Source of the DNA: Paraconexibacter antarcticus
Lineage (GTDB): Bacteria; Actinomycetota; Thermoleophilia; Solirubrobacterales; Solirubrobacteraceae
Assembly: GCF_024220175.1 (NCBI RefSeq)
Contig: NZ_CP098502.1
Coordinates: 620,001 to 684,000, forward strand
Length of the DNA stretch: 64,000 bases
Direction: 5' to 3'
Shown: positions 3 through 23,339 of the stretch, piece by piece
Layout of the letters: every line of letters begins with the position of its first letter
Position numbering within the stretch: the stretch's first letter is position 1
Position numbers and translations under genes: made by a program
The notes under the pieces: model-generated
Databases searched by the model: none
What the model was told of the DNA's origin: nothing
The model's input: the letters and a program-made list of their open reading frames with translations, nothing else

Positions 3-1253
3 CACGAAGGCCTGCTCGAGGGCCGCGTGGGGGCGGGCAGCCGGATCGCTCCGGCCCCGCGGCCGTCCGGGGCCCCGGCCGCGCCCCCCGACCGGCGCTG
101 GGACCTGGACCTGCACCCCGAGGTGACCGACCTGGCCGCGTTCCCGCGGCGGGCCTGGCTGCGGGCCTACGGTGCCGCGGTCCACGATCTTCCTGACCGG
201 GCACTCGGGTACGAGGAGCCGCTCGGCCTGCGCGAGCTGCGCGAGGAGCTCTGCGTCTACCTGGCGCGTGCCCGCGGGGTGCGCTGCGACCCGGAGCAGA
301 TCGTGATCTGCGGCGGGCTGCTCGCCGGGCTGGCGATCGTCCGCCGGGCGCTCGCCGATACCGGTGTGCGCTGTCTGCACCGCGCGCGCGTCTCCCACCG
401 GGCCCTGGGTGAGCTCTCCCGCGGGACGGTCAGCGGCCCGGCCACCGGCTGGCTGGACGTGGACGGCGCGGGTCTGGTGGTCGACGCGCTCCCGCGGCGG
501 TCACGCCAGGCCGTGCTCGTGGAGCCGGCCGGCAGCTACCCGCTCGGAGCCCGCCTGTCGGCCGCGAGGCTCACCACGCTGACCGAGTGGGCCCGGCGGC
601 AGGACGCCGTCCTCGTGGAGTCCGACCTGAACGCCGAGCTCGACCACGACGGCGTCGGGCTGCCCGCGCTCCAGGGGAGCCTCCCGGAGCGGACCGTGCT
701 CATCGGCTCCACGAGCCGCGCGCTGGCGCCGGGCCTGCGCGTGGGCTGGATCGTGGCCCCGCCGGGCCTCGTCGGGGCGCTCACCGCCGCGCGCCGGGCC
801 ACCGAGCCCGGCCAGCCCGTGCTCGAGCAGCTGGCGCTGGCGCGGTTCCTGGCGGCCGGTGACCTGGATCGGCACCTCCGCCGCCTGCGCTCGACCTACC
901 GGACACGCGCCCGCACGTTCGCGAACCTGCTCGAGGATGCCGTCGAGGGCGGGCGCCTGGACGTCCCGGCCTGCGGCTTTCATCTCGTGATGGGCCTGCC
1001 GCCGGGCGCGGCCGACGAGTCCTCGGTCGTGGCCGCGGCCGCGGCTGCCGGGCATCGGGTGCGGCTGGTCGGGCTGGCCGGCCACGTCCTGCACGGCCCG
1101 CCGCTGCCGCCCGCGCTCGTCCTCGGCTACGGCGCGCTTCCGGAGGCGGCGATGGCCCGCGCGGTGCAGGCCCTCACCGGCGCGATGGCGGCGCGGGGCC
1201 GCCGGCCCGACGACGAGCCCGCCGGATCGGCCGCGACCCCTCCACGCGGCTGA
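3..1253 (+). CDS. MocR-type GntR-family regulator, aminotransferase-like domain (5' end outside window)
   Basis: The frame is open from base 3 and the first residues (GLLEGRVGAGSRIA) look like the wing of a GntR winged helix, so the DNA-binding domain lies mostly to the left of the window. The remaining ~400 residues follow the fold-type I aminotransferase domain of MocR/PdxR regulators (LRELREELCVYLARARG, APGLRVGW). Key positions have decayed: the PLP Schiff-base lysine expected in the S-K-x-L-A-P-G motif is arginine (TSRALAPG, codon 717-719), and the usual DDYD-type motif reads ESDLNAEL. It therefore probably cannot form the normal internal aldimine. MocR proteins normally regulate vitamin B6 or amino-acid genes; no such target is adjacent. 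Family assignment is good, function unknown. Confidence 0.8.
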   Translation, partial: HEGLLEGRVGAGSRIAPAPRPSGAPAAPPDRRWDLDLHPEVTDLAAFPRRAWLRAYGAAVHDLPDRALGYEEPLGLRELREELCVYLARARGVRCDPEQIVICGGLLAGLAIVRRALADTGVRCLHRARVSHRALGELSRGTVSGPATGWLDVDGAGLVVDALPRRSRQAVLVEPAGSYPLGARLSAARLTTLTEWARRQDAVLVESDLNAELDHDGVGLPALQGSLPERTVLIGSTSRALAPGLRVGWIVAPPGLVGALTAARRATEPGQPVLEQLALARFLAAGDLDRHLRRLRSTYRTRARTFANLLEDAVEGGRLDVPACGFHLVMGLPPGAADESSVVAAAAAAGHRVRLVGLAGHVLHGPPLPPALVLGYGALPEAAMARAVQALTGAMAARGRRPDDEPAGSAATPPRG

Positions 1254-1289
1254 CCCCAGGCGGCCCGCCCGCGGACCCCGCCGAACCTC

Positions 1290-2348
1290 TCAGCGCTGCA
1301 GCGACCCGCCCACCAGCAGCCCCACGAACCCGGGCAGGGAGGAGAAGAAGCCCGGGGCCCAGTCCTTGTAGTGGGAGTGCATGCCGGCAAGGAAGGCCTG
1401 AGCGACGGCGCCGCCGGTGGACTTCGACATGTCGCAGACGACGTCGTCGGCGAAGCAGACGTCGAGCTTGTAGGGCAGGGCGGCGGGCAGGCGCTTGGCG
1501 CCGAAGACGCCGTGCCCCTTGCGCCTGACGGGCGTGGAGCGGTTGGGGTTGAAGTAGTCGAAGTTGTAGGAGTACTTCGTCTGGCCCGCGGAGTAGGTGT
1601 CGGCGAAGAGGGCGGCGACACGCACGTGCCGGAAGGCGGAGGTCCGGAGCGAGCGCATCGTCTCGCTGGCGACGCCGGCCCCCTGGGAGTAGCCGATGAC
1701 CGCGATCTTCGAGCCGGGGCAGTCCTTGATGCGCCTCATGATCGCCTTGCGCAGGAGGATCTCACCGACCTGCATCGACAGCCGGAACTTCTGCGGGTCC
1801 TGGATCAGCGTCTCGACCGAGACGGCGGGGTAGGGGATGCCCTTCAGGAGCACGCTCTTGCCGCCGAGCTTGACCTTGGCCGCGTCGGCGGCCGGGCCGA
1901 CGGTGGCGCCCATCCCGTGGTTGCCCTTGCTCGACTCGCCGGACCCGCGCAGGCCGAAGATGGTGTACCGCTGGCAGCGCGGCGCGGGCGGCGGCGTGGC
2001 CGCCCCGCACGTCGGGGCGCCGGGGAGCCCACCGTCGGTGTAGGTCTTCAGCAGCTGGTCGGGGACGTAGTAGGCGCCGACCTTGTCCCACAGCGACGAG
2101 CCGTACGCGACCTGGCCCTGGACCTGGCAGGTGATGCGCACCCACTGGCCCTTGCGCACGGCGTTGATGAACGCGCGCGGCTCCAGCTGGGGCTTGCTGC
2201 GCCCGTCGATGTCGGCCTTGGCCACGTACGTGTTCGTGGGCGCCCACGGCACGAGCGAGTGGATCCGCTTCGCCTCGGCCCGGGACGCGGACAGCAGCGA
2301 CAAAAGCACGGTGGCGGTGAGCACGAGAGCGCGGCGGAACCTGGGCAT
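1290..2348 (-). CDS. Secreted cutinase-family serine esterase
   Basis: 352 residues with an N-terminal signal peptide (about residues 1-26, ending AEA). Residues ~28-100 form an SH3-like-looking region, followed by a proline-rich linker and a cutinase-like alpha/beta hydrolase domain. The nucleophile motif GYSQGAG lies near residue 220, the C-F-A-D-D-V-V-C-D segment near 300 carries the catalytic Asp between two cysteines as in cutinases, and a His is available in MHSHY near 324. Cutinases hydrolyse ester bonds of polyesters or lipids outside the cell; the actual substrate cannot be told. It is convergent with the MocR-like gene and lies downstream of the L,D-transpeptidase gene on the same strand. 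Confidence 0.85.
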   Translation of the reverse strand: MPRFRRALVLTATVLLSLLSASRAEAKRIHSLVPWAPTNTYVAKADIDGRSKPQLEPRAFINAVRKGQWVRITCQVQGQVAYGSSLWDKVGAYYVPDQLLKTYTDGGLPGAPTCGAATPPPAPRCQRYTIFGLRGSGESSKGNHGMGATVGPAADAAKVKLGGKSVLLKGIPYPAVSVETLIQDPQKFRLSMQVGEILLRKAIMRRIKDCPGSKIAVIGYSQGAGVASETMRSLRTSAFRHVRVAALFADTYSAGQTKYSYNFDYFNPNRSTPVRRKGHGVFGAKRLPAALPYKLDVCFADDVVCDMSKSTGGAVAQAFLAGMHSHYKDWAPGFFSSLPGFVGLLVGGSLQR

Positions 2349-2433
2349 GGCGCAGTCTGTACCCGCGCGCCGCGGCCTGGGCTCCGGTTCTCACGAAAGC
2401 TTCACGAAATCCCCCGGCCGGACGCGCGTGCGG

Positions 2434-3243
2434 TCAGTGGATGATGGTGACCGGGGTGCCGAGCGGGAGCATCCGGGCGAGCTTGCGGATGATCGCGTTC
2501 TTCACGCGGATGCAGCCGTGGCTGATGTCGGTGCCGATGGCGGCGGGGGCGTTCGTACCGTGGACGCCGACCTGTCCGTCGCCGCCCTCGAACGAGGTGT
2601 AGACGGTGGAGAACGCCGACAGCCCGAAGGCGTACGGACCGTAGAAGGGGTCGGTGGAGCGGATGAGATCGGTGAGGTAGTACGTGCCGGTCGGGGTCGG
2701 TGAGAGCGACCGGCCGACACCGATGCGCGCGTGGAGGATCGTCACCCGTCCTCGGCGCACGAGGATCCGGTGGCGGCGGAGCTGGACGGCGACGCGGAAG
2801 TTCGTCGCCGACGTGCTGACGGCCGACCGCTTGATCCAGCCCCGCGCGCCGTTCGGCCGCACGGGCAGGCGGACGCGGAACCAGCCCTTGTGCGCGTGAT
2901 CGGTGACGGCGAAGACGAGCGGGAGGCGGCGTCCGTCGAGCACGCGTGCGCGCAGCAGCCTGGTCCGCGGCGCGCCGCGATGCGGCCGGGCGTAGACGGG
3001 GATCGTCCTGCCGCGGGCGGTGGCGATGATCGTCGTGTACCGCGTCAGGGTCGGGACGCGGGCCGCGCGCGCGCTGAAGGAGGCGGGCGCCTGCCGCTCG
3101 CGCACCGCGGGGAACCGGGGTCCGGCCTGGGTGCTGCCGTGGAAGACCGCAGGCGCGAGGAAGAGCCCGGCGACCGCCGCGGCGAGCACGATGGCCACGC
3201 CGCGGGCCACGGCGACAGCGGAGAGTGAGCGGAGCGCCGTCAT
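2434..3243 (-). CDS. L,D-transpeptidase (YkuD domain), exported
   Basis: 269 residues. A hydrophobic N-terminal segment (~residues 12-33) acts as membrane anchor or signal peptide; residues ~65-140 resemble an SH3-like domain; the C-terminal ~125 residues carry the YkuD signature HGTN...SHGCIR with the catalytic Cys at about residue 243. Such enzymes cross-link peptidoglycan peptides (3-3 links) or attach proteins to the wall, in the periplasm/wall space. Start ATG at 3243 lacks a clear ribosome-binding site and sits 16 bases after a strong hairpin that separates it from the upstream ferritin-like genes, so it probably has its own transcript. Confidence 0.9.
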   Translation of the reverse strand: MTALRSLSAVAVARGVAIVLAAAVAGLFLAPAVFHGSTQAGPRFPAVRERQAPASFSARAARVPTLTRYTTIIATARGRTIPVYARPHRGAPRTRLLRARVLDGRRLPLVFAVTDHAHKGWFRVRLPVRPNGARGWIKRSAVSTSATNFRVAVQLRRHRILVRRGRVTILHARIGVGRSLSPTPTGTYYLTDLIRSTDPFYGPYAFGLSAFSTVYTSFEGGDGQVGVHGTNAPAAIGTDISHGCIRVKNAIIRKLARMLPLGTPVTIIH

Positions 3244-13276: not shown

Positions 13277-13707
13277 GTGCGTTGGTGGTGGTGACGTGCA
13301 CCGCCGCGCCGACCCGCACGCGACAGCTGAGCCGGTGAGACGCCCGATCGGATCACCCCCGCGCCGGACCGTGGGGATGGGGTCCAGGGTAGCGGCTGGG
13401 TGCCATGACGGGGCGGGCTTCGGTCAGCTGGACGCCGTGTTGGCCAAGTGGCCGGCATCGGCGTAGGGTCGCGCCCATGACCCGCGTCGCCGTCGCGGGA
13501 GTACCACCGTGATCGCCCTCGGCGCCGCGACCATCGCGATCGCGGCGGGTCAGCAGTACAGGGCCGGCCGCGTCGGCGCCCGGCGCCCCGGGTGCGGGAA
13601 GGTGGATACGGGGGTTGTGCGAAGCGGACGGCGCCGAAGGTGGGGCGGGGCTAGAGAAGTTCGCGGGACCATTCGACGGGCTACGCCCGACGGGAGATAC
13701 TCGTCAC
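13277..13707. other. Intergenic stretch at the left edge of the accessory region
   Basis: About 430 bases separating the SpoIIE-type gene from the HNH endonuclease gene. It includes the divergent promoter region and a short frame starting ATG 13478 (MTRVAVAGVPP, then stop) that could be a remnant; I cannot assign it. Composition falls from very GC-rich to clearly lower GC toward the HNH gene. No direct repeat or tRNA that would mark an attachment site is visible. Confidence 0.4.
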
Positions 13708-14652
13708 GTGGAGACGGAACACGATCGCTTGCTGCGTCTGGCTGCTTTCGATCGCGCACGCGAGTTGTCCCGTCGTTACAACGATCTCGTGCCGTTGGAC
13801 GCGTTGAAGGAGGGGTTCACGTTTCAAGGCCGGCGCGTGAGCTTCGGGTCCTTCTACAGCGGAATCTTCCGGCCGAAAGAACTCGATGGTCCCGCCGCTC
13901 TCTCGCTCGTCACGGCGCCCGCCGTGGCGCGCAAGCCGGCACCTTACGAAGACACGTACGACGAAGCGAACGGGCAGTTCACGTATCGCTTCCGCGACCC
14001 TGGGAGTCAAACGACGCGAGCCACGCTTCAGGCCGAGGCTGACAACCGGAAGCTCATCGAGGCGCACCGCCTTGGCGTGCCCGTCATCTACTTCCGCGGG
14101 ATCGCTCCTGGGCAGTACACACCCGTGGTCCCGGCGTTTGTGACCCGCATCGACACCATGACGCGCACTGCAGCGCTTGAGGTCGGACTCCCGCTCGCCG
14201 ACACGACCGCCGTAGGGCTCGTCAGCAACGAGGACACTCGACGGTACGCGACGCGCGAAGCTGCGTACCGGCTGCACCAACATCGCTTCCGCCGGGCCGT
14301 GTTGCACGCCTACCGGACGCGATGCACCATCTGCTCGCTCAAGGAGGCGTCGCTCCTCCAGGCGGCCCACATCATCGAAGATCGCGATCCGCTCGGTGGC
14401 GCAGTCGTGATCAACGGCCTCGCCCTATGCGCGATTCATCACCTCGCCTACGACCGAAACCTGCTGGGCATCGACCCGGACGGTGTCGTGCACATCCACG
14501 AACGACTTCTCCACGAGATCGACGGGCCGATGCTGAAGAACGGCCTGCAGCGCTTCCACGGCGCTCACATTCTGGCGCCATCGCACGTCGGTGACCGGCC
14601 AGACCCCGACCGTCTCGCTCTTCGGTTCGAAGCGTTCCGGGCCGCGGCATAG
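13708..14652 (+). CDS. HNH endonuclease, probably modification-dependent restriction enzyme
   Basis: 314 residues. The C-terminal third holds an HNH_2-type nuclease core: CTICSLKEASLLQAAHI, then NGLALCAIHHLAYDRNLL. The first ~190 residues form a separate domain with YEDTYDE and PVIYFRGI segments, reminiscent of modified-DNA-reading (SRA-like or sulfur-binding) domains of type IV restriction proteins; this part is inference. GTG 13708 (GGGAG ribosome-binding site upstream) is preferred over the upstream ATG. GC content (~62% over a sampled 60 bases) is well below that of neighbours, a sign of recent transfer. Convergent with the ATPase/HEPN-like operon. Confidence 0.85.
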   Translation: METEHDRLLRLAAFDRARELSRRYNDLVPLDALKEGFTFQGRRVSFGSFYSGIFRPKELDGPAALSLVTAPAVARKPAPYEDTYDEANGQFTYRFRDPGSQTTRATLQAEADNRKLIEAHRLGVPVIYFRGIAPGQYTPVVPAFVTRIDTMTRTAALEVGLPLADTTAVGLVSNEDTRRYATREAAYRLHQHRFRRAVLHAYRTRCTICSLKEASLLQAAHIIEDRDPLGGAVVINGLALCAIHHLAYDRNLLGIDPDGVVHIHERLLHEIDGPMLKNGLQRFHGAHILAPSHVGDRPDPDRLALRFEAFRAAA

Positions 14653-14696: not shown

Positions 14697-15104
14697 TTAG
14701 CTGTCGGCTGGCCCTGAAGCGCTACCCACGCCTCGCGCGGTCGTGAGCGCTTGTGCGACCACCTCCCGGAACGCGTCCGCCGTCCGCAGATGCGCCCGCA
14801 GCTCCGCCTCCGTCAGCCCGACGTCGTACGCCCGCTGGTGGCACGCCTCCGAGAGCGCCGACCACGCGTACTCGGCCGCACGGATGACGGGGTCGCGCCC
14901 GAGGTAGGACGGCAGCGCGACCCAGCGGTCGGCCGCGCTGGCGAAGAGCATCTGCGAAGACGTCTTCCTCCAGTACGCGTCGAGCGTCGTCTCGATCGCC
15001 TGCCGGGTGAGGACGGCGGCGCCGCGCGGCCAGACGGTCGCGGTGTCCGGCTCGGGCTCGTCGAGCAGCGCGAGCGCAGCGCGGAGCAGGTCGGGGACCT
15101 TCAC
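14697..15104 (-). CDS. Small HEPN-like helical protein coupled to the Rad50-like ATPase
   Basis: 135 residues, all-alpha in appearance. The GTG start at 15104 overlaps the stop of the ATPase gene as GTGA, so the two products are made in a coupled way. The segments LTRQAIETTLDAYWR and ALSEACHQRAYDVG recall HEPN folds, where a helix-borne Arg/His pair can form an RNase site; the ATPase C-terminus contains a similar pair (LCRTAVEAACAE and LNAGSHGQY). I do not recognise a named family with certainty. It may be the toxic or binding partner of the ATPase. Confidence 0.7.
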   Translation of the reverse strand: MKVPDLLRAALALLDEPEPDTATVWPRGAAVLTRQAIETTLDAYWRKTSSQMLFASAADRWVALPSYLGRDPVIRAAEYAWSALSEACHQRAYDVGLTEAELRAHLRTADAFREVVAQALTTARGVGSASGPADS

Positions 15105-17461
15105 GCCGCGGACTCCATGAGCGACCGCACGAGGTCGCTCGTGCGGCGGTGGAGCTGCTCGACGGAGTCGGCGTACTGCCCGTGCGAGCCAGCGTTCAGC
15201 GCGCCGACGACGCCGTTCGCGTCGGGGCCGCCCTCGCGGCGCAGCGCCTCGGTGAGGTCGGCCTGGTCGCCGGCCGGCCCGAGCAGCGCGAGCGTCAGCA
15301 GGTCCCGCAGCGTGCGGGCGGCCTCGAGCTGCTCGTCCGCCGCCGCGGCGTCCAGCCCGTCGGCGACGACCCGCGCCCGGACGAGCTCCGCGCACGCGGC
15401 CTCGACCGCCGTCCGGCACAGCGTCGGGACGACGCGCTGCTGCACCTCGGCCGGCACGGCGTTCGACCGCATGAGCCGCCTGGCGTCGTCGAGGTGGCGG
15501 ACGAAGGGGCGCTTGGAGACGGTCACGCTCACCTGCGAGCGGCTGCGCCGGTTGACCTGCAGGATCGTCGCGGTGAGCTTCAGCCGGCGGATCGCCTCGG
15601 GCAGCCGGTCGTCGTGGGTGAAGACGACGACCTGCCGCGTCGCCGCGGCCTGGCTGAGGATCCGCGCGAGGCCGTCGACCTTCGCCGGGTCCATCGACTG
15701 CACGGGGTCGTCGATGATGGCGAAGCGGAAGGGGGACTCGTCGAGCGCGGCGCGGGGGAGGAAGACCGACACGCTCAGCGCGAGCAGCTCGCCCTGGGAC
15801 ATGACGCCGAGCGCGTTCGCGTCCTCGCCGTCGGCGCGCACGTCGAACATCGCCTCCTTGCGGCGGCCGACGCTCCGCAGCGTGATGTCGCGCAGCTCGA
15901 CGTTCGACTCGTGGCGCAGCAGCTCCCAGTTGGCGACCGCCTGCGCGGCGATCGGCGCGAAGCGCTCGTTGCGCAGCGTGTCGATCTCGGCCTTCAGCCA
16001 CTTCTCGGCCGCCTTCAGCGCGGTGAGGCGCCCGGCGTCCGCCGCCGCGCTCTCGGCCCCCGCGAGCCACGCGGTCGTCGCCTCAGCGTGCGCGCGCCAC
16101 ACGGCGTCCTGCGCGGCGAGGGACGCCTGGGCTGCGGCGACCGCGGTACGCGCGGCGGCAGCACGGGCGAGCACCGCGTCGAGGGCGCCGGCGTCCGGGT
16201 CGAGCGGCTCGCCGTCCACCGCCGCGACGGCGCCGGCGAGCGAGCGCCACGCGGCGGCCGCGCCGTCCCGCGCGCGCTCGGCCGCCGCGAGCTGGGCGGC
16301 CTGCGTGCGCAGCTCGTCCACCTGCGTCTGCGCGGCGGCCGCCCACCCGGCGTCGAGCACGTTCGCGGTCCGGCAGACCGGGCAGCCGTCGGTGAGCCGC
16401 GCGGGATCGCGGAGCCTCAGCGCACGGTTGAGCAGGTCGGCGGTGGCGAGCGCGCGGGAGGTGTCGGTCGTGGCGAGGCTCGTGACGGCCGCGGCCGCCG
16501 CGTCCCGCTCGGTGTGGGCGTCGCGGAGCGCGTCGTCGTCCGGGACCGGCGCGGCGGCGAGGCGGCGCGTCGCGGCGGTCGCGGGGTCGGCGCCCGTTCC
16601 GGCCCCGGGCGGGTGCGCGGCGAGGTGCGCGCGGACGTCGTCGAGCTTCGGCTTGCGCGCTGTGAGGAGCGCCGCGAGCGTGGCCTGCCGCTCGTCGCTG
16701 TCGTCGAGCCGCGCGACGATCGCGGCGGCCTCGGCCTTGGACTCCTTCGCCCGGCGCTCGATCGCCAGGCGCGTGTCGGCGAGCGACGCGGCGAGCCCGT
16801 CGAGCTCATCGAGCCCGAGGATCGGCGACAGCGCCGCGGGCAGGCTCGCGAGCTTGTCGAACATCGTCGCGAGCTCGGCGTAGGCGAGGAACGGGCGGAA
16901 GCTCGCGAGCGCGGCGTCCCATCCGTGCGCGCGGAGGACCGCGTCGGCGTCGGTGCGGCCGGACGCGTCCGTGTACTCGGCGCCGCGGCCCCACGCCTGC
17001 TCGAGGACGACCGGCGTATCGTCCCCCGCGACGACGAACTCGGCCTGCAGGCGCGTCGGGCCGCCGTGGTGCAGGCACTGCCACGTGTCGGTCCAGCCCC
17101 GCGACTTGCCCTCCCACCGCTTCGTCGCGCCGGTCGCGAGCAGCTCGAGCCCTTCGGCGAAGGAGGACTTCCCGCTGCCGTTGCGGCCGACGACGACGGT
17201 GAGGCCGGGGCGCGCGTCGAGCTCGAGGGTGGCGGCCGGCCCGATGCCGCGGAAGCCCTCGACGGTGACCGAGCGCAGGTAGACCTGCTCTCGAGTGGTG
17301 GCGGCGTCGCCGCTCGCCGCGGCCGCGTCGCTCCCGGCGGGGGCGGCGCCCGGGCCGAGCGCTCGGGTCACCTCGGCCTTGGCCTCGGGGGGCAGGTCGG
17401 CGGCGGCGTCGAGCCGGACGCGGAGGAGGGCGTCGAGGGCAGGGTCCATGGGTGAGGTCAT
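15101..17461 (-). CDS. Rad50/SMC-like AAA ATPase with zinc-hook motif and C-terminal HEPN-like domain
   Basis: 786 residues. Walker A GRNGSGKS (~91-98), alanine/glutamate-rich coiled-coil arms with a CPVC zinc-hook-like motif near residue 360, ABC-type signature MSQGELLALS (~552), Walker B IIDDP with D-loop SMDPAK (~580) and H-loop FTHDD (~614). Architecture is therefore that of Rad50/RecF-like DNA-handling ATPases. The last ~100 residues look like a HEPN-type helical bundle. No Mre11/SbcD nuclease is adjacent; instead a small HEPN-like protein is coupled by a 4-base overlap. ATG 17461 has a GGAG ribosome-binding site. Role in defence is inferred from architecture and context. Confidence 0.85.
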   Translation of the reverse strand: MTSPMDPALDALLRVRLDAAADLPPEAKAEVTRALGPGAAPAGSDAAAASGDAATTREQVYLRSVTVEGFRGIGPAATLELDARPGLTVVVGRNGSGKSSFAEGLELLATGATKRWEGKSRGWTDTWQCLHHGGPTRLQAEFVVAGDDTPVVLEQAWGRGAEYTDASGRTDADAVLRAHGWDAALASFRPFLAYAELATMFDKLASLPAALSPILGLDELDGLAASLADTRLAIERRAKESKAEAAAIVARLDDSDERQATLAALLTARKPKLDDVRAHLAAHPPGAGTGADPATAATRRLAAAPVPDDDALRDAHTERDAAAAAVTSLATTDTSRALATADLLNRALRLRDPARLTDGCPVCRTANVLDAGWAAAAQTQVDELRTQAAQLAAAERARDGAAAAWRSLAGAVAAVDGEPLDPDAGALDAVLARAAAARTAVAAAQASLAAQDAVWRAHAEATTAWLAGAESAAADAGRLTALKAAEKWLKAEIDTLRNERFAPIAAQAVANWELLRHESNVELRDITLRSVGRRKEAMFDVRADGEDANALGVMSQGELLALSVSVFLPRAALDESPFRFAIIDDPVQSMDPAKVDGLARILSQAAATRQVVVFTHDDRLPEAIRRLKLTATILQVNRRSRSQVSVTVSKRPFVRHLDDARRLMRSNAVPAEVQQRVVPTLCRTAVEAACAELVRARVVADGLDAAAADEQLEAARTLRDLLTLALLGPAGDQADLTEALRREGGPDANGVVGALNAGSHGQYADSVEQLHRRTSDLVRSLMESAA

Positions 17462-18118: not shown

Positions 18119-19111
18119 TCACCGACGCGGCGACGGGCGGCGGATCCGCGACCCGCGCGGCCCGTCCTCGATGACGGGCGGGAAGCCGCTCAGCTGGATG
18201 AGCTCGCCGTCGAGGCACAGCGCGGTGCCGGTCGCTCCCATGCCGTGGCCGAGCGCGACGTCCTCGCCGAGGCCGGCGGCGCGGCGCGTGGTCGCCTCGA
18301 CCGGGTGCAGGAAGCCGTCGACCCAGTCCTGGACCCACGCCGTGTCGATGTTCTCGCCGACGACCGTCGCGAGCCCGGGGCCGCGCGCGTCGAGGGCGTC
18401 GAGCGCGTAGCCCTGCACGAGCGGGCCGTGGAGCGCAGCCCACACGTCCGACCGACTGACGTAGTCGAGGACCGCGACCCCGCCGTGCACGGCGGCGACC
18501 GCGCCGACCTGCCCGTCCTGGCGGGCGACGGCGGCGACCATCGCGTCGATCGCGCCGCGGTCGTGGTCGAAGACGTCCGCCATCGCGCCGGTCGGGCTGT
18601 GCGCGCCGCGTCGCGCGGACTTCGCGGCGACCTCGTCCCACACGGCGCTCTGGTCGGCGCGGGCCTCGGCCCCGAACGAGACGGCCGTCGTGACCTGGCG
18701 GTGCTTCATCGCGCGCAGCGACGGATAGGCCGCCTGGGGCGCGGGGGAGAAGGACTCGTCGTGGCGGGCGCCGTCCCAGCGGCCGGCCTCCACGCAGCTC
18801 ACGGGCACGGTCATCTCCGCGCCGGCGGGGACGAGGACGCTGCGGTCGAGCGTGCGGTTCTGCTGCGCGCCGCTGACCTCCTCGCCGTCGTAGAGCAGGA
18901 CCGCGACGCCGAGCGGGTTGTGGACGACGAGGTCGTTCACCGACGCGCCGTCCTTCAGCTCGCGGACGACGAAGCCCTCCGCGGCGGCCTGCGCGAAGGA
19001 GCGGTACTCCAGCCGGGGCGCGCCGGCGGCGAAGAGGGGGAAGACCGTGAGCGCGCCGCTGGTCTGCGGGGCGCCGACGCGGATCTCGGCGGTGAGGACG
19101 GGTGCGGGCAT
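18119..19111 (-). CDS. ARPP-1 family protein
   Basis: 330 residues matching the ARPP-1 domain across its length: NPLGVAVLLYDGEEVSGAQQNRTL, then SVLVPAGAEMTVPVSCVEAGRW and the C-terminal LCLDGELIQLSGFP. ARPP-1 was described by comparative genomics as a component linked to ADP-ribosylation and other conflict/immune gene neighbourhoods; its biochemical role is unknown. ATG 19111 has an AAGGAG ribosome-binding site. It is the first gene of the leftward set that continues with the MWLFT protein, the Rad50-like ATPase and the HEPN-like protein. Confidence 0.85.
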   Translation of the reverse strand: MPAPVLTAEIRVGAPQTSGALTVFPLFAAGAPRLEYRSFAQAAAEGFVVRELKDGASVNDLVVHNPLGVAVLLYDGEEVSGAQQNRTLDRSVLVPAGAEMTVPVSCVEAGRWDGARHDESFSPAPQAAYPSLRAMKHRQVTTAVSFGAEARADQSAVWDEVAAKSARRGAHSPTGAMADVFDHDRGAIDAMVAAVARQDGQVGAVAAVHGGVAVLDYVSRSDVWAALHGPLVQGYALDALDARGPGLATVVGENIDTAWVQDWVDGFLHPVEATTRRAAGLGEDVALGHGMGATGTALCLDGELIQLSGFPPVIEDGPRGSRIRRPSPRR

Positions 19112-19220
19112 CTCGGACTCCTTGGATCGGGACGTTGCGGTGGGAGTCGTCGTGCGGGGCGGTGGTCTGACGGCCGGGGGGCAGGGTGAGCGGCGGGAGG
19201 CGTAGCCCGCTCGCCCGGGC

Positions 19221-19484
19221 GTGCGGAAGGCCGGCGACGAGCTCCGCGTCTCGCTCGCGGACAAGCTCCACAACGCACGCGCGATCCTCCTCGACTACCG
19301 CACGGACGGCGAAGCGCCCTGGGTCCGCTTCAGCGCGCCTGGCGGCGGCGAGTCCGTCCGCTGGTACTACCGCGCCCTCACCGACGCCTTCATCGCGCGG
19401 GCGGACACGCTCGGTCGCGGGGCGGCGCCGTTCCTCGAGGAGCTGGGCGGACGGTGGCGCGGAGCTGGATCGGTTGGCGGGTGA
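19221..19484 (+). pseudogene. Truncated HD-domain (p)ppGpp hydrolase-like fragment
   Basis: An 87-residue frame shows SLADKLHNARAIL, then VRWYYRALTDAF, the C-terminal half of small HD phosphohydrolases of the RelA/SpoT-hydrolase (MESH1-like) type. The N-terminal half with the first metal-binding His and HD pair is absent, and an in-frame TAG lies immediately upstream (19203-19205), so the reading frame cannot extend. It is most likely a remnant left by a deletion or insertion at the edge of the ARPP-1 cassette. Confidence 0.7.
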
Positions 19485-19538: not shown

Positions 19539-20663
19539 ATGTCCGACGACCGCAACGGCAAGGCCGGCGACGGCGCGCGCGAGGTGCGCGCGCGCCTCGC
19601 GGCTGCCCGTCTGCGCAGGCTGCACGCCGAGGGGGCCTCTGCGGACGAGCTCATCGCCGCGCTCGATGATGCGCCGGCTCACGAGCTCGCGTGGGCGCTC
19701 GGGGCCGAAGGTGAAGAGGTGGTCGCCGGCATCCTGGACGCAGCTGCGGAACTCCGCGGCTTCGGCGTCCTGCACGATCTCTCGATCCCCGGCAGCCGCG
19801 CCAACATCGACCATGTCGTGGTCGGTGCCGCGGGCGTCACTGTCATCGACACGAAGGCATGGTCGGGCGCTGTCCGGGTCAGCCACGGAGGGGTCCGCAT
19901 AGGGGGCTGGAACAAACGGGAGGACCTCGAGGCCATCGTCGACCAGGTCAAGCTCGTGGCCGACACTCTCCGCGACAGCGGCTTTGAGGTGCCGGTCCGC
20001 GGCGCCCTCTGCCTCGCCAATCGCAACGCCGGAGCGCCCGTCGTCGGCCGGGAGACGCGGGGAGTGACCATCGGGACCCCCGAGGCGGTCGTCGCGTCGG
20101 TGTCCCGCCCAGGCTCGACGACGCGCGTGGACGCGCTGACGATCATGGGCGTCTTGGAGCAGCGGTTCCGCCCCCGGGCCGTGGTGCCCGTCGGCAGCGT
20201 CCTGGTCGTAGTCCCGGCGACCTCGGCACCGCCCTCGCTACCGGCGACCCGGGCGCGGCGCGGCCCCACGCGGAAGCCTGCGACCGTCGCGCGTCAGCGA
20301 CGCCGGGGGCGGTCGTCGGGGCCGCGACGCCCGGTCAAGGGCGAGTCGCTCGGTGCGCTTCTCCTCAGGCTGGCTCTCGTGGGGGCGTTGTTCTGGGGAG
20401 CGCTGACGGCGCTTCACCACGCCGGCGAGCACTCCCGCCTGACGACCACGCAGGTGCTCGCCATGCGTCCCGGGCTGCGCGCCCGCGCGGTCGCGGCGGC
20501 CGGCGGCCCTGTGCACGGGCCGTCGATCGCCTGGACACCGGCGCGCGCTCGCCTGCGCTACCGCCGCGGGAGCTGCCACATCCGCATCGACGTCGAGCGG
20601 GCTTCTGCGCGCTCGGCGGCGGACGGCGTCCTGACCAGCGGGTCCGGGTGCCGCAGGTCCTGA
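19539..20663 (+). CDS. NERD (nuclease-related) domain membrane protein
   Basis: 374 residues. The NERD fold signature appears at ~86-112: R-A-N-I-D-H-V-V-V, then T-V-I-D-T-K-A-W-S-G, which keeps the D...D-x-K catalytic pattern of restriction-endonuclease-like nucleases. A basic linker (~235-268) precedes one transmembrane helix (~271-292) and a ~80-residue C-terminal domain with two cysteines. NERD proteins are thought to act on nucleic acids; membrane tethering would place the nuclease domain in the cytoplasm. ATG 19539. Convergent with the following small secreted-protein gene. Confidence 0.78.
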   Translation: MSDDRNGKAGDGAREVRARLAAARLRRLHAEGASADELIAALDDAPAHELAWALGAEGEEVVAGILDAAAELRGFGVLHDLSIPGSRANIDHVVVGAAGVTVIDTKAWSGAVRVSHGGVRIGGWNKREDLEAIVDQVKLVADTLRDSGFEVPVRGALCLANRNAGAPVVGRETRGVTIGTPEAVVASVSRPGSTTRVDALTIMGVLEQRFRPRAVVPVGSVLVVVPATSAPPSLPATRARRGPTRKPATVARQRRRGRSSGPRRPVKGESLGALLLRLALVGALFWGALTALHHAGEHSRLTTTQVLAMRPGLRARAVAAAGGPVHGPSIAWTPARARLRYRRGSCHIRIDVERASARSAADGVLTSGSGCRRS

Positions 20664-20671
20664 GTCGTTGA

Positions 20672-21031
20672 TCAATGGCAGTCCGGGCTGTAGATGAGCC
20701 GGCGGTTGTAGTACGTCGCGTGCTCGGTCACCCGGACGGTGATGTCGCACTCGACGTCGGTCGCGTATTCGAGCGTCACGGGGCAGTCGACGACGAGCGC
20801 GCCAGCGCGGGAGCACTCGTACGACAGGCCGGCCCGCACGCCGATGCAGTCGTCGAGCTGGTTGCAGAGGCGGCGCGCGAAGCCCGCGGCCTGCGTCTTC
20901 GCCTCGGGCTTGGACAGGTAGCTGTAGGCGGCGGCGGCGGTGGGAAGCGCGGTGGCGGCGAGGACCACCAGGAGGGTCAGGGGCCACGCGTGTCGGCGGC
21001 GACGAAGGACGGGGAAGGACGAGATGAACAC
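20672..21031 (-). CDS. Small exported cysteine-rich protein
   Basis: 119 residues. Basic N-terminus (PVLRRRRH), a hydrophobic helix and an A-A-A-A-Y-S-type cleavage region suggest a signal peptide of ~35 residues. The mature part contains six cysteines spread over ~75 residues (CNQLDDC, ECSRAG, VDCPV, VECDI, SPDCH), probably disulfide-bonded. GTG 21031 is supported by GAAGGAGA upstream. No family recognised. Confidence 0.65.
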   Translation of the reverse strand: MFISSFPVLRRRRHAWPLTLLVVLAATALPTAAAAYSYLSKPEAKTQAAGFARRLCNQLDDCIGVRAGLSYECSRAGALVVDCPVTLEYATDVECDITVRVTEHATYYNRRLIYSPDCH

Positions 21032-21222
21032 TTCGGGTCTCCTTCGACGGATCGTTGACGTTGACGTCGAGGTCGCGGGGCGCACCGCGTTTCTGACCGA
21101 CCACCCACCTCGCCCCGCCCGCCGCCGTATCCGCGCCCGGTTCGGCCCGGTTGGCGTCGATTCCGCAGACCCCTCCCGTCCGCCTGTCAGATCCACCCCA
21201 CACCGCACGACCCGCCCGTCCC

Positions 21223-21852
21223 GTGGCGTCTCCCGAACCACTTCCCGAACACGTCCTCGACGGCCTGACCGACGAGGAGCTCATCGCCTACATCGCCGCG
21301 ATGCGTTCCCGCGGGAACGCGGAGGCGGCCGCGACGGGGCTCGGGGTGCTCGTCTTCGGCCACTGGGAGAACGTGCGGCGCCGGGTGGCGCTGCGGGTGC
21401 CGCCGGTCGAGGTCGAGGACCTCACCGGGGAGATCATCACGAGCGCGGTGCGGTCGGCGTTCGACGGCACCTCGGAGGGCGAGTTCATCGTCTGGCTCGG
21501 GACGATCGTCAAGCGCCGGATCGCCGACTTCTACCGGCTGCGCGAGCGGCGCCTGGACACCGCATCGCTCGACTCGATCGCGGAGGGCGGGCGCGAGCCG
21601 GCGACGGACGGTGAGATCGACCTGGGCGGGTACCTCGAGGTCCAGGCCGTCATCGTCGACCTGCTCGGCTCGCGGTCGGACGCGCACCGTCGCGTCATCG
21701 AGATCATGGTCTTCGACGACCTGCCGGCGAGCCCCGCCGTCGCCGAGGTCGACGGCATGACCGCGGCGAACGCCTACCAGGTCGTGACGCGCTTCCGGGC
21801 GGAGCTCCGGCGGCGCCTGGCCGAGCGCGATGCTGACGCAGACCCGGCATGA
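21223..21852 (+). CDS. Sigma-70 (ECF-like) RNA polymerase sigma factor
   Basis: 209 residues. An N-terminal region (~45-110) resembles sigma region 2 (EVEDLTGEIITSAV, FIVWLGTIVKRRIADFYR, with R-R-x-x-D-F/Y-R reminiscent of the -10-recognition helix), and the C-terminal ~60 residues resemble region 4 (HRRVIEIMVFDDLPASPAVAEVDGMTAANAYQVVTRFR). The motifs are divergent, so assignment is moderate. GTG 21223 is chosen; TTG 21151 would extend it by 24 proline-rich residues. Its stop overlaps the next gene's ATG by four bases, forming an operon with an XRE protein and an ImmA-type peptidase. Confidence 0.7.
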   Translation: MASPEPLPEHVLDGLTDEELIAYIAAMRSRGNAEAAATGLGVLVFGHWENVRRRVALRVPPVEVEDLTGEIITSAVRSAFDGTSEGEFIVWLGTIVKRRIADFYRLRERRLDTASLDSIAEGGREPATDGEIDLGGYLEVQAVIVDLLGSRSDAHRRVIEIMVFDDLPASPAVAEVDGMTAANAYQVVTRFRAELRRRLAERDADADPA

Positions 21853-22553
21853 GCACCGTCGAGCGACTTCTCAAGCAGTTCATCGCCGCCGACCGGAACG
21901 GGGGCGACGCGCCGGACCCGGCGGCGTACGTCAAGCAGCTCACGGGCGCCGACCGCGAGGAGCTCATCGTCCTCATCGACGCCTACCTCGCCCGGGCGCC
22001 ACGCCGCGCCTTCGACCGCGACGCGTTCGCGGCGTCCGGAGCCAGTGCGCTCACCGACGACCTGCAGCAGGCGCTCGACAGCGACGCCGGCACATGGCCC
22101 GCGCTGCTGCCGCGCCTGCGTCACCGCGCACGCCTCACCCGCGCGCAGCTCGTCAGCCGCCTGGCCGCCGCCCTCGGCGTCCCCGCGCAGGAGCACACCG
22201 TCCATCGCTACTACCACGCGATGGAGCAGGGGACGCTCCCCGCGGACGGCGTCACGGACCGCGTCCTCGAGGCGCTCGCCGCGATCGTCGGGACGACGGC
22301 GGACACGCTCCGCAGAGCCGGCGAGCGGATCACGCCCCCGCCCGCCCCTGGGGGCCACGCCGCCTTCGCGCGCCACGCCCGCCCGGACCCGGCCTACCCG
22401 TCCTTCGCCGCGCCGCCGGCGATGTCGTCGCCGGGCTTCCACGCGTCCGACCTGCGGGCGACCCCGACGCCCGCCGGCACGCCCGACGAGCGCAGCACCG
22501 CCGGCGACGTCGACGCGCTCTTCACCGGCCGCCGCCGGTCAGGTCGCGGGTAG
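21849..22553 (+). CDS. XRE-like helix-turn-helix protein coupled to the sigma factor
   Basis: 234 residues. The middle (~90-160) looks like an XRE-type helix-turn-helix (RLTRAQLVSRLAAALG, then VLEALAAIVGTTADTLRRAG); the C-terminal third is proline/alanine-rich and probably disordered. ATG 21849 overlaps the sigma-factor stop (ATGA). Likely regulator or antagonist of the sigma factor; the downstream ImmA/IrrE-type peptidase would be the usual partner cleaving an XRE repressor. Confidence 0.65.
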   Translation: MSTVERLLKQFIAADRNGGDAPDPAAYVKQLTGADREELIVLIDAYLARAPRRAFDRDAFAASGASALTDDLQQALDSDAGTWPALLPRLRHRARLTRAQLVSRLAAALGVPAQEHTVHRYYHAMEQGTLPADGVTDRVLEALAAIVGTTADTLRRAGERITPPPAPGGHAAFARHARPDPAYPSFAAPPAMSSPGFHASDLRATPTPAGTPDERSTAGDVDALFTGRRRSGRG

Positions 22554-22572
22554 CGCCGGCGACTGTTCGGGG

Positions 22573-22776
22573 ATGGAGCACCGTCCCGACCCGCTGCGCG
22601 CCTACGCCAACGCGGTCCGCGCGGGAGACCGCCGGCTCGCCGGCCTCATCGCCGCGCGCGTCTTCCGCCGCGACCGCCGTCGTGCCGCCGCACCGCTACC
22701 ACCGGAGGCCGGGGGCGGCCCGACGCCCGCCGCCCGCGAGACCTTCCGCCGCCTGCGCGACCACCTCGGGATCTAG
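22573..22776 (+). CDS. Small arginine-rich hypothetical protein
   Basis: 67 residues (MEHRPDPLRAYANAVRAGDR...), highly basic, starting 19 bases after the XRE gene and ending 12 bases before the ImmA-type frame. The spacing and strand argue that it is translated as part of the operon. No recognised domain. Confidence 0.55.
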   Translation: MEHRPDPLRAYANAVRAGDRRLAGLIAARVFRRDRRRAAAPLPPEAGGGPTPAARETFRRLRDHLGI

Positions 22777-22788
22777 GCTGCGCAGACC

Positions 22789-23339
22789 GTGGAGGAGATC
22801 GAAGAGCGCGCGGATCGCATCCTCGCCGGGACCCCGGAGTACCTGTGGGACGGCGAGCGCCTCCCGGTCCCGATCGAGGACATCACGGACTCCGTCTTCG
22901 GCCTCCTGGTCCGCGACGTCGTGACCTGGCCGGGGCGCCCGGGGCGCCCGCGGTCGGCGTCGGCCAGTCGCTCAGCGGCCTGCTGCTCCCGTCGCGCGGT
23001 GAGATCTGGGTCAACGCCGACGAGGCCCGCCGCTGGCCGCCGCGCCGCCGCTTCACGATCGGCCACGAGGTCGGGCACTGGGTCCTGCACCGCCAGCCCG
23101 GGCAGCAGGCGCTCTTCTGCCGCCACACGAGCATCCACGAGCCCGAGCACCCGCCGGCCGAGCCCCCGCGCGACATCGAGGAGGAGGCGAGCGCCTTCGC
23201 GGCCGCGCTCCTCATGCCGCGCTGGCTCTTCGTCCGCGAGCACGCCCGCTGCGACGGCGACGTGGAGACGCTGTGCGAGACGTTCGGGACCTCGCGCGCG
23301 GCGACCGCGCGGCGGGTGGCGGCGCTGTTCGGCGGTTGA
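22789..23339 (+). pseudogene. ImmA/IrrE-family metallopeptidase, frameshifted
   Basis: The N-terminal part (GTG 22789; VEEIEERADRILAGTPEYLW, PVPIEDI, FGLLVRDV) and the C-terminal part (GQSLSGLLLPSRGEIWVNADE, then the zinc motif FTIGHEVGHWVLH and a helical end to 23339) are two halves of one ImmA/IrrE protein read in different frames. The switch lies in the repeat GGGGCGCCCGGGGCGCCC around 22932-22950 and is equivalent to one missing base. Either a genuine inactivating mutation or a sequencing/assembly slip in a GC repeat. If intact it would be a zinc protease that cleaves the partner XRE regulator. Confidence 0.8.

Follow-up and report, generated by a model that had tools for sequence, protein, structure and literature searches.

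We analysed a pair of overlapping genes in a 64,000-nucleotide stretch of the Paraconexibacter antarcticus genome (contig NZ_CP098502.1, positions 620,001 to 684,000; hereafter, the window, in whose numbering positions are given). The first gene of the pair encodes a Rad50/SMC-like ABC ATPase with a fused C-terminal domain that is predicted to be of the HEPN type, and the second encodes a small protein predicted to be a free-standing domain of the same type. In its anatomy, the pair resembles the anticodon nuclease RloC, from which it differs in the presence of the second gene.

Genes and features of the locus

Both genes lie on the minus strand, with the following features (ATPase residues are numbered from TTG 17464):

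14697-15104, minus strand: predicted free-standing HEPN protein of 135 residues, with its GTG start at 15104
14838-14840, minus strand: His89 of the free HEPN protein
14991-15005, minus strand: Arg34-x3-Glu38 of the free HEPN protein, placed by alignment
15101-17449, minus strand: Rad50/SMC-like ABC ATPase with the fused C-terminal HEPN domain, about 782 residues from ATG 17449 (Pfam and alignment)
15104-15517, minus strand: predicted fused C-terminal HEPN domain, residues ~650-787 (AlphaFold2 and VIA)
15182-15184, minus strand: His761 of the fused HEPN domain, in the motif NxG[SA]H (alignment)
15401-15415, minus strand: Arg684-x3-Glu688 of the fused HEPN domain (Arg, 15415-15413; Glu, 15403-15401; alignment and register with RloC)
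15614-15616, minus strand: His617 of the H-loop (105 of 105 relatives)
15704-15724, minus strand: Walker B motif FAIIDDP, residues 581-587, followed by the D-loop (motif and alignment)
15788-15802, minus strand: ABC signature MSQGE, residues 555-559 (motif and alignment)
16373-16384, minus strand: zinc-hook-type motif CPVC, residues 361-364, in the coiled-coil insert (C361 and C364 in 104 of 104)
17165-17188, minus strand: Walker A motif GRNGSGKS, residues 93-100 (motif and alignment)

The stop codon of the ATPase gene occupies positions 15101-15103, and its frame offers three possible starts, TTG 17464, ATG 17461 and ATG 17449, the last of which is most likely the genuine one, because relatives begin with 'MDPVLRTLLLERL', an N-terminus that fits this codon. 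The GTGA common to the ATPase stop and the partner start spans 15101-15104. This overlap had already been described, together with the Walker A and B motifs, signature, H-loop and CPVC hook of a Rad50-like ATPase, in an earlier reading of the window made without database searches (hereafter, the sequence-only reading), and all these elements were found on the minus strand. Across 105 ATPases, the Walker A motif, the CPxC hook, the signature, the Walker B motif with the D-loop (IIDDPVQSMD, residues 583-592, in the window) and the H-loop are near-invariant, with a few positions inside the motifs varying (for instance, S97 is kept in 99 of 104). The family further possesses an N-terminal extension of ~60 residues ahead of the ATPase core, and the source genome, a single contig of 5.14 Mb, encodes the ATPase once.

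In Pfam, the window ATPase matches SMC_N (49.1 bits), AAA_23 (36 bits) and AAA_21, all above the cut-offs; AAA_13 (PF13166) scores 19.3 bits, below its cut-off of 36, and is matched at E<=0.001 by 15 of 25 family members. A profile search of the PDB with the ATPase yielded only the heads of Rad50, SMC and RecF. The small partner from the window is unmatched in Pfam, PADLOC and NCBIfam; 27 members of its family gave only scattered Pfam matches, with E values of 0.03 or worse, and a PDB profile search with the small protein produced nothing credible.

Coupling and distribution of the two genes

In a first set of 31 loci, the small gene stands next after the ATPase gene in 29, the two exceptions being a locus where a contig end cuts the ATPase (L022) and one with a broken ATPase (L065). 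The second, partly overlapping set comprises 80 loci retained from a profile scan of the genome collection, including four (L066, L067, L068 and L094) from genomes already present in the first; here, the small gene is next in 79, and the remaining locus (L084) is at a contig end. In 45 of these 79, the start of the small gene precedes the final base of the ATPase stop by 3 bases. Seen in 29 of 31 and 79 of 80 loci, the pairing is more than chance, and the pair is a real, widespread, two-gene arrangement. The alignments built from these loci omit two duplicates (L019 and L053), L022 and L065; L015 and L064, with a frameshifted or truncated ATPase, contribute to the small-protein alignment (A1) but not to the ATPase alignment (A2), and two further alignments, A3 with 58 sequences and A4 with 61, were reduced to non-redundant members.

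Relatives of the ATPase occur in 10 of the 232 genomes of the order and in 19 of the 396 genomes of a phylum sample, the window's genome being included in both counts. All 19 also carry the small gene, which was detected in three additional genomes of the phylum sample, namely, G248, where the end of an ATPase lies at the contig edge, and G419 and G273, which hold remnants. In the genome collection, a scan with a single sequence found no ATPase relative, but the alignment-based profile scan found them, such that at least 487 of 588 pattern-matching stretches encode one. The record titles of the 80 retained loci name Actinomycetota, Acidobacteriota, Dormiibacterota, Chloroflexi, Spirochaetaceae and Proteobacteria; any one of these labels could be mistaken, given that several records are metagenome bins. 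Four plasmid records contain ATPase relatives, the fourth being a short 39% match, and viral contigs gave six weak matches confined to the ATPase motifs.

Predicted folds and shared triads of the two HEPN-type domains

AlphaFold2 models of the small protein and of ATPase residues 645-787 reach predicted local distance difference test scores of 95.0 and 95.2, respectively. In Foldseek searches against the PDB, the best rows for the small protein were largely HEPN proteins, at E values of 0.1-0.5. VIA aligned the small protein to the HEPN structure 2hsb with a Z score of 13.1 (113 residues aligned, root-mean-square deviation 2.6); 12 of the first 22 titles named HEPN or HepT (spelled 'HpeT'), and most of the others were structural-genomics entries, among them 1ylm and 1jog, which are HEPN proteins according to PMC3710099. 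The first clearly unrelated row, a designed protein, appeared at rank 23 with Z 8.6. For the ATPase C-terminal domain, HEPN proteins led the list (Z 9.7 to 1o3u, 103 residues aligned, root-mean-square deviation 3.0), with Csm6 at ranks 19-21. Because Z scores below ~13 can, by the tool's own warning, reflect a common helical arrangement, the fold assignment is based on the ordering of the rows and on the triads described below, not on Z by itself. On this basis, the small partner and the C-terminal end of the ATPase are both predicted to be HEPN-type helical domains, as the sequence-only reading had proposed for both parts.

Neither alignment has a conserved Arg 4-6 residues ahead of H89 or H761, as an Rx4-6H motif would demand. 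Instead, both domains contain R-x3-E...H, the same triad as in the anticodon nucleases PrrC and RloC (PMC2610378), the nuclease domains of which are classed as HEPN (PMC3710099). In the free HEPN protein, R34 is conserved in 105 of 106 sequences, E38 in 104 of 106 (the other two having Asp) and H89 in all 106; the only other positions kept at 95% or more are W81 (105/106) and L84 (103/106). In the fused domain, R684 and E688 are present in 105 of 105 sequences and H761 in 104 of 105, a tally that includes two loci with a broken fused domain (L014 and L062); one of the 104 His residues, that of L062, is an alignment accident, because the fused domain of this locus is truncated. Among 61 non-redundant ATPase C-domains, R40, E44 and H117, which correspond to R684, E688 and H761, are invariant. 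By sequence-weighted entropy, R, H and E head the ranking in the small family, together with W81, and R, E and H do so in the ATPase C-domain, together with a Gly. The echo of Arg and His positions between the two proteins noted in the sequence-only reading is real and stronger than claimed, since conservation in both domains peaks at R-x3-E and the His.

The idea that the two proteins share a domain is also borne out by direct profile comparison: hhalign of the small family against the ATPase C-domain family returned an E value of 6.9e-5 with a probability of 63%, with RxxxE paired with RxxxE and the His residues offset by one column. In three loci (L014, L015 and L062), the fused HEPN domain is frameshifted or deleted past the RxxxE helix and the small HEPN is intact; specifically, the fused domain is lost in L062, and the ATPase is frameshifted in L014 and L015.

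Relationship to RloC and to other known systems

RloC combines a Rad50-like ABC ATPase that bears a CxxC hook with the triad Arg-X3-Glu-X36-52-His, the His often being preceded by Ser (PMC2610378). In the Geobacillus kaustophilus protein, tRNA cleavage depends on each of R692, E696 and H737, and RloC mutated in the hook is hyperactive (PMC2610378); RloC is activated by inducers of DNA breaks (PMC3874168). The window ATPase, likewise, is a Rad50-like ABC protein with a CxxC hook and a predicted C-terminal HEPN domain containing R-x3-E...H. For comparison, we used 10 RloC-type proteins, namely, L156, with a full-length AAA_13 match of 510.5 bits, and nine plasmid homologs (L194, which has a stop in the reference, was omitted); the hook CPFC and R663, E667 and H705 (L156 numbering) are invariant in all 10. 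Comparison of the window ATPase family with this set by hhalign gave a probability of 89% and an E value of 2.1e-6 over a span from the signature region to the C-domain, in which R684 and E688 fall on R663 and E667, so that the Arg and Glu are in register. When the isolated C-domains were compared, only the similar His motifs aligned, NAGSH on HEGSH (E 0.018, probability 2.6%). In PADLOC, among the best 25 of 73 rows, the candidate family PDC-S06, to which L156 (702 bits) and L196 (810 bits) belong, was the second-best match of the window ATPase (59.4 bits).

The pair also departs from RloC. A second HEPN gene is found in nearly every locus of the window family, whereas none of nine annotated RloC-type loci has an overlapping small gene; in L191, a 117-codon hypothetical gene lies 380 bases downstream, and in L198, a 255-codon DCL-family gene is immediately next. 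The window family also differs in the N-terminal extension ahead of the ATPase core, and the window ATPase in its sub-threshold AAA_13 score. In anatomy the pair resembles RloC; by the features compared, it does not belong to RloC proper.

PrrC is similarly built from an ABC ATPase and a HEPN domain, with the triad Arg320-Glu324-His356 (PMC2610378). In the account of PMC2610378, however, a type I restriction enzyme linked to PrrC keeps it silent, the Rad50-like zinc-hook insert is a feature of RloC, and no separate HEPN protein is mentioned for PrrC. HEPN-MNT (HepT-MntA) toxin-antitoxin modules include a HEPN protein similar in size to the small partner, and HepT is among the structural rows; we rejected this identity because the partner here is an ATPase rather than a nucleotidyltransferase and the small protein has no conserved Rx4-6H. 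DndD or CxC ABC-ATPases with DndE also combine an SMC-like ATPase with a small protein in tandem (PMC10853773), but this identity was rejected too: as described there, DndE consists of two ribbon-helix-helix domains and the hook, where there is one, is CxC, as opposed to the CPVC hook and the all-helical, HEPN-like partner of the present pair. SbcCD/Rad50-Mre11 was discarded as well, because the window pair has no gene of the Mre11/SbcD type next to it and is flanked by an HNH protein and by proteins without such a match. For Lamassu (LmuB with LmuA), the best 25 of 73 PADLOC rows contain partial LmuB matches of 40-46 bits, restricted to the ATPase motifs, and no match for the partner. Finally, L154 encodes an unnamed fused ABC-HEPN ATPase (985-3210, minus strand) with a CPLC hook and a C-terminal RQSVE...CHYKPGDPAPTESDL that resembles the small partner; it differs in that the HEPN is fused, and against the small-family profile it scores a weak 10.9 bits.

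The Pfam, NCBIfam and PADLOC scans put no name to the pair, and no paper was recognised as describing it in a literature search that did not cover the classification of ABC ATPases by Krishnan et al. 2020. The pair belongs to the ABC-HEPN (RloC/PrrC) kind, of which it is an unnamed two-gene form. The suggestion of the sequence-only reading that an ATPase and a HEPN protein form a distinct pair here, with no gene for a DNA nuclease, is upheld, with the addition that the closest known system, which it did not name, is RloC (with PrrC).

Gene neighborhoods

We surveyed the neighborhoods of 103 loci, with genes called by a simple frame model and one or two members annotated per cluster. The recurring neighbors include GmrSD restriction (5 loci), ResIII-DUF3427 type IV-like restriction (5), HsdM (5) and a helicase with an RNase H-like domain (6). 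In L013 (10794-14351), L014 (10796-14347) and L064, a UvrD-like helicase of ~1,120-1,190 residues is located immediately downstream of the pair, possibly constituting a three-gene form; the L013 helicase has no PADLOC match.

In the genus Nocardia, the ATPase is present in 51 of 59 genomes, and a cluster of AAA_5, DUF5682 and DUF5691 genes lies upstream of the pair in ~30 loci, in a mostly constant neighborhood. Examples are L073, L108 and L093, with AAA_5, DUF5682 and SWIM/DUF5691 genes upstream; a carboxylesterase is also a conserved neighbor. A literature search with the names AAA_5, DUF5682 and SWIM/DUF5691 together returned no paper. The Nocardia pattern is one of long-term residence, not of a mobile gene.

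In the window itself, an HNH_2 protein (13615-14652, plus strand) is convergent with the small HEPN gene at a distance of 44 bases; its match to a restriction endonuclease for phosphorothioated DNA is partial (57 bits, where the cut-off is 180). On the other side lie an ARPP-1 domain protein (18119-19273, minus strand; PF20208, E 4.7e-79) and, at 19539-23339 on the plus strand, a NERD-domain protein, a weak match to sigma-70 region 2 and an ImmA/IrrE-type peptidase, which possibly form a small island, with no clear G+C shift seen. In G171, taken for a synteny comparison to look for an empty site, the contig stops at 7669 bases.

Discussion

On balance, we favor the interpretation that the two genes encode a HEPN ribonuclease that is gated by the ATPase, is related to RloC and has a further HEPN subunit as a protein of its own. 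The coupling of the genes, the predicted HEPN-type folds of both parts, the near-invariant triads and the register of the fused RxxxE with that of RloC all point in this direction, and restriction-type neighbors (GmrSD, type IV helicase-restriction and HsdM) outside Nocardia are consistent with it. Beyond these observations, we infer a physical complex, ribonuclease activity, a tRNA target, a DNA trigger and a role in defense. By analogy with RloC, the Rad50-like head and the zinc-hook coiled coil would most likely sense DNA ends, or aberrant DNA when a phage or plasmid enters the cell; ATP turnover would alter the dimer such that the fused and the separate HEPN are brought together. HEPN domains usually act as dimers, and the effector would be a HEPN site formed by the fused and the free domain, each contributing a full triad. 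The R-x3-E...H triads would then cut RNA without a metal, most likely in tRNA anticodon loops, and the ensuing stop of translation and growth arrest would amount to abortive defense or dormancy, of which abortive defense is probably the role of the pair. More tentatively, and short of what we would call probable, the pair may represent a distinct defense class, a hetero-HEPN ribonuclease whose half-sites are divided between the Rad50-like DNA sensor, to which one is fused, and a separate protein, so that the ribonuclease assembles only when the ATPase engages DNA, and which serves as a near-core genome guard in Nocardia.

Several observations weigh against our preferred reading. Foldseek found no PDB match at E<=0.001 for either HEPN model, and its best row for the ATPase C-domain was a probable transcriptional regulator (E 0.34); the warning on low VIA scores applies to the same domain. 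Profile comparison of the small HEPN with the RloC HEPN gave no signal. In the window ATPase, the spacing between E688 and H761 is 72, versus 36-52 in RloC; the 50 residues between E38 and H89 of the small protein fall within the RloC range. The three restriction-type clusters jointly touch 14 of the 103 loci, a share that could also arise beside random genes. The breaks in L014, L015 and L062 may mean that the fused HEPN is dispensable in places, or they may be sequencing or binning errors; they would also fit a small HEPN with a function of its own. Finally, the near-core presence and steady neighborhood in Nocardia make the pair unlike a typical accessory system. The sequence-only reading had named conserved neighborhoods indicating a housekeeping repair role as one of the outcomes that would tell against it, and in one genus, Nocardia, this outcome is seen in part.

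An alternative is a toxin-antitoxin-like arrangement, with the ATPase-HEPN protein as the toxin and the small HEPN as an inhibitor or chaperone that covers the dimer surface until a trigger arrives. The overlapping operon order and the obligate pairing agree with such a scheme, as do the loci where the ATPase HEPN is lost or frameshifted and the small gene stays open. However, the small protein retains the three triad residues in nearly all 106 sequences, and an inhibitor would not need a full triad, which disfavors a purely inhibitory role; we regard this scheme as unlikely.

Another alternative envisages a chromosome-maintenance or DNA-repair ATPase, in which the HEPN domains would be non-catalytic RNA- or nucleotide-binding parts of a lineage-specific housekeeping complex. 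The Rad50/SMC type of the ATPase and the situation in Nocardia, with its conserved AAA_5, DUF5682, DUF5691 and carboxylesterase neighbors, speak for it, but the patchy distribution in the order and in the phylum sample, the near-invariant catalytic-type triads in both HEPN domains and the lack of an Mre11/SbcD-type gene beside the window pair render it improbable. We read the Nocardia copy as a retained guard function, with a housekeeping role possible. That the locus is an ordinary RloC with a chance neighbor, where only the fused HEPN matters, is very improbable: the ATPase does resemble RloC and PDC-S06, but the small gene is coupled to it, being next in 79 of 80 loci with a near-invariant triad of its own, and the RloC loci examined lack an overlapping small gene.

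If the pair is indeed an ATPase-gated HEPN ribonuclease with a separate subunit, it would add a widespread pair, with ATPase relatives in at least 487 of the 588 pattern-matching stretches, to which the Pfam, NCBIfam and PADLOC scans gave no name. RloC couples the sensing of DNA breaks with tRNA cleavage, and a natural form in which the second HEPN is encoded by its own gene would make the control of a HEPN site by the ATPase testable through the addition or removal of a single subunit.

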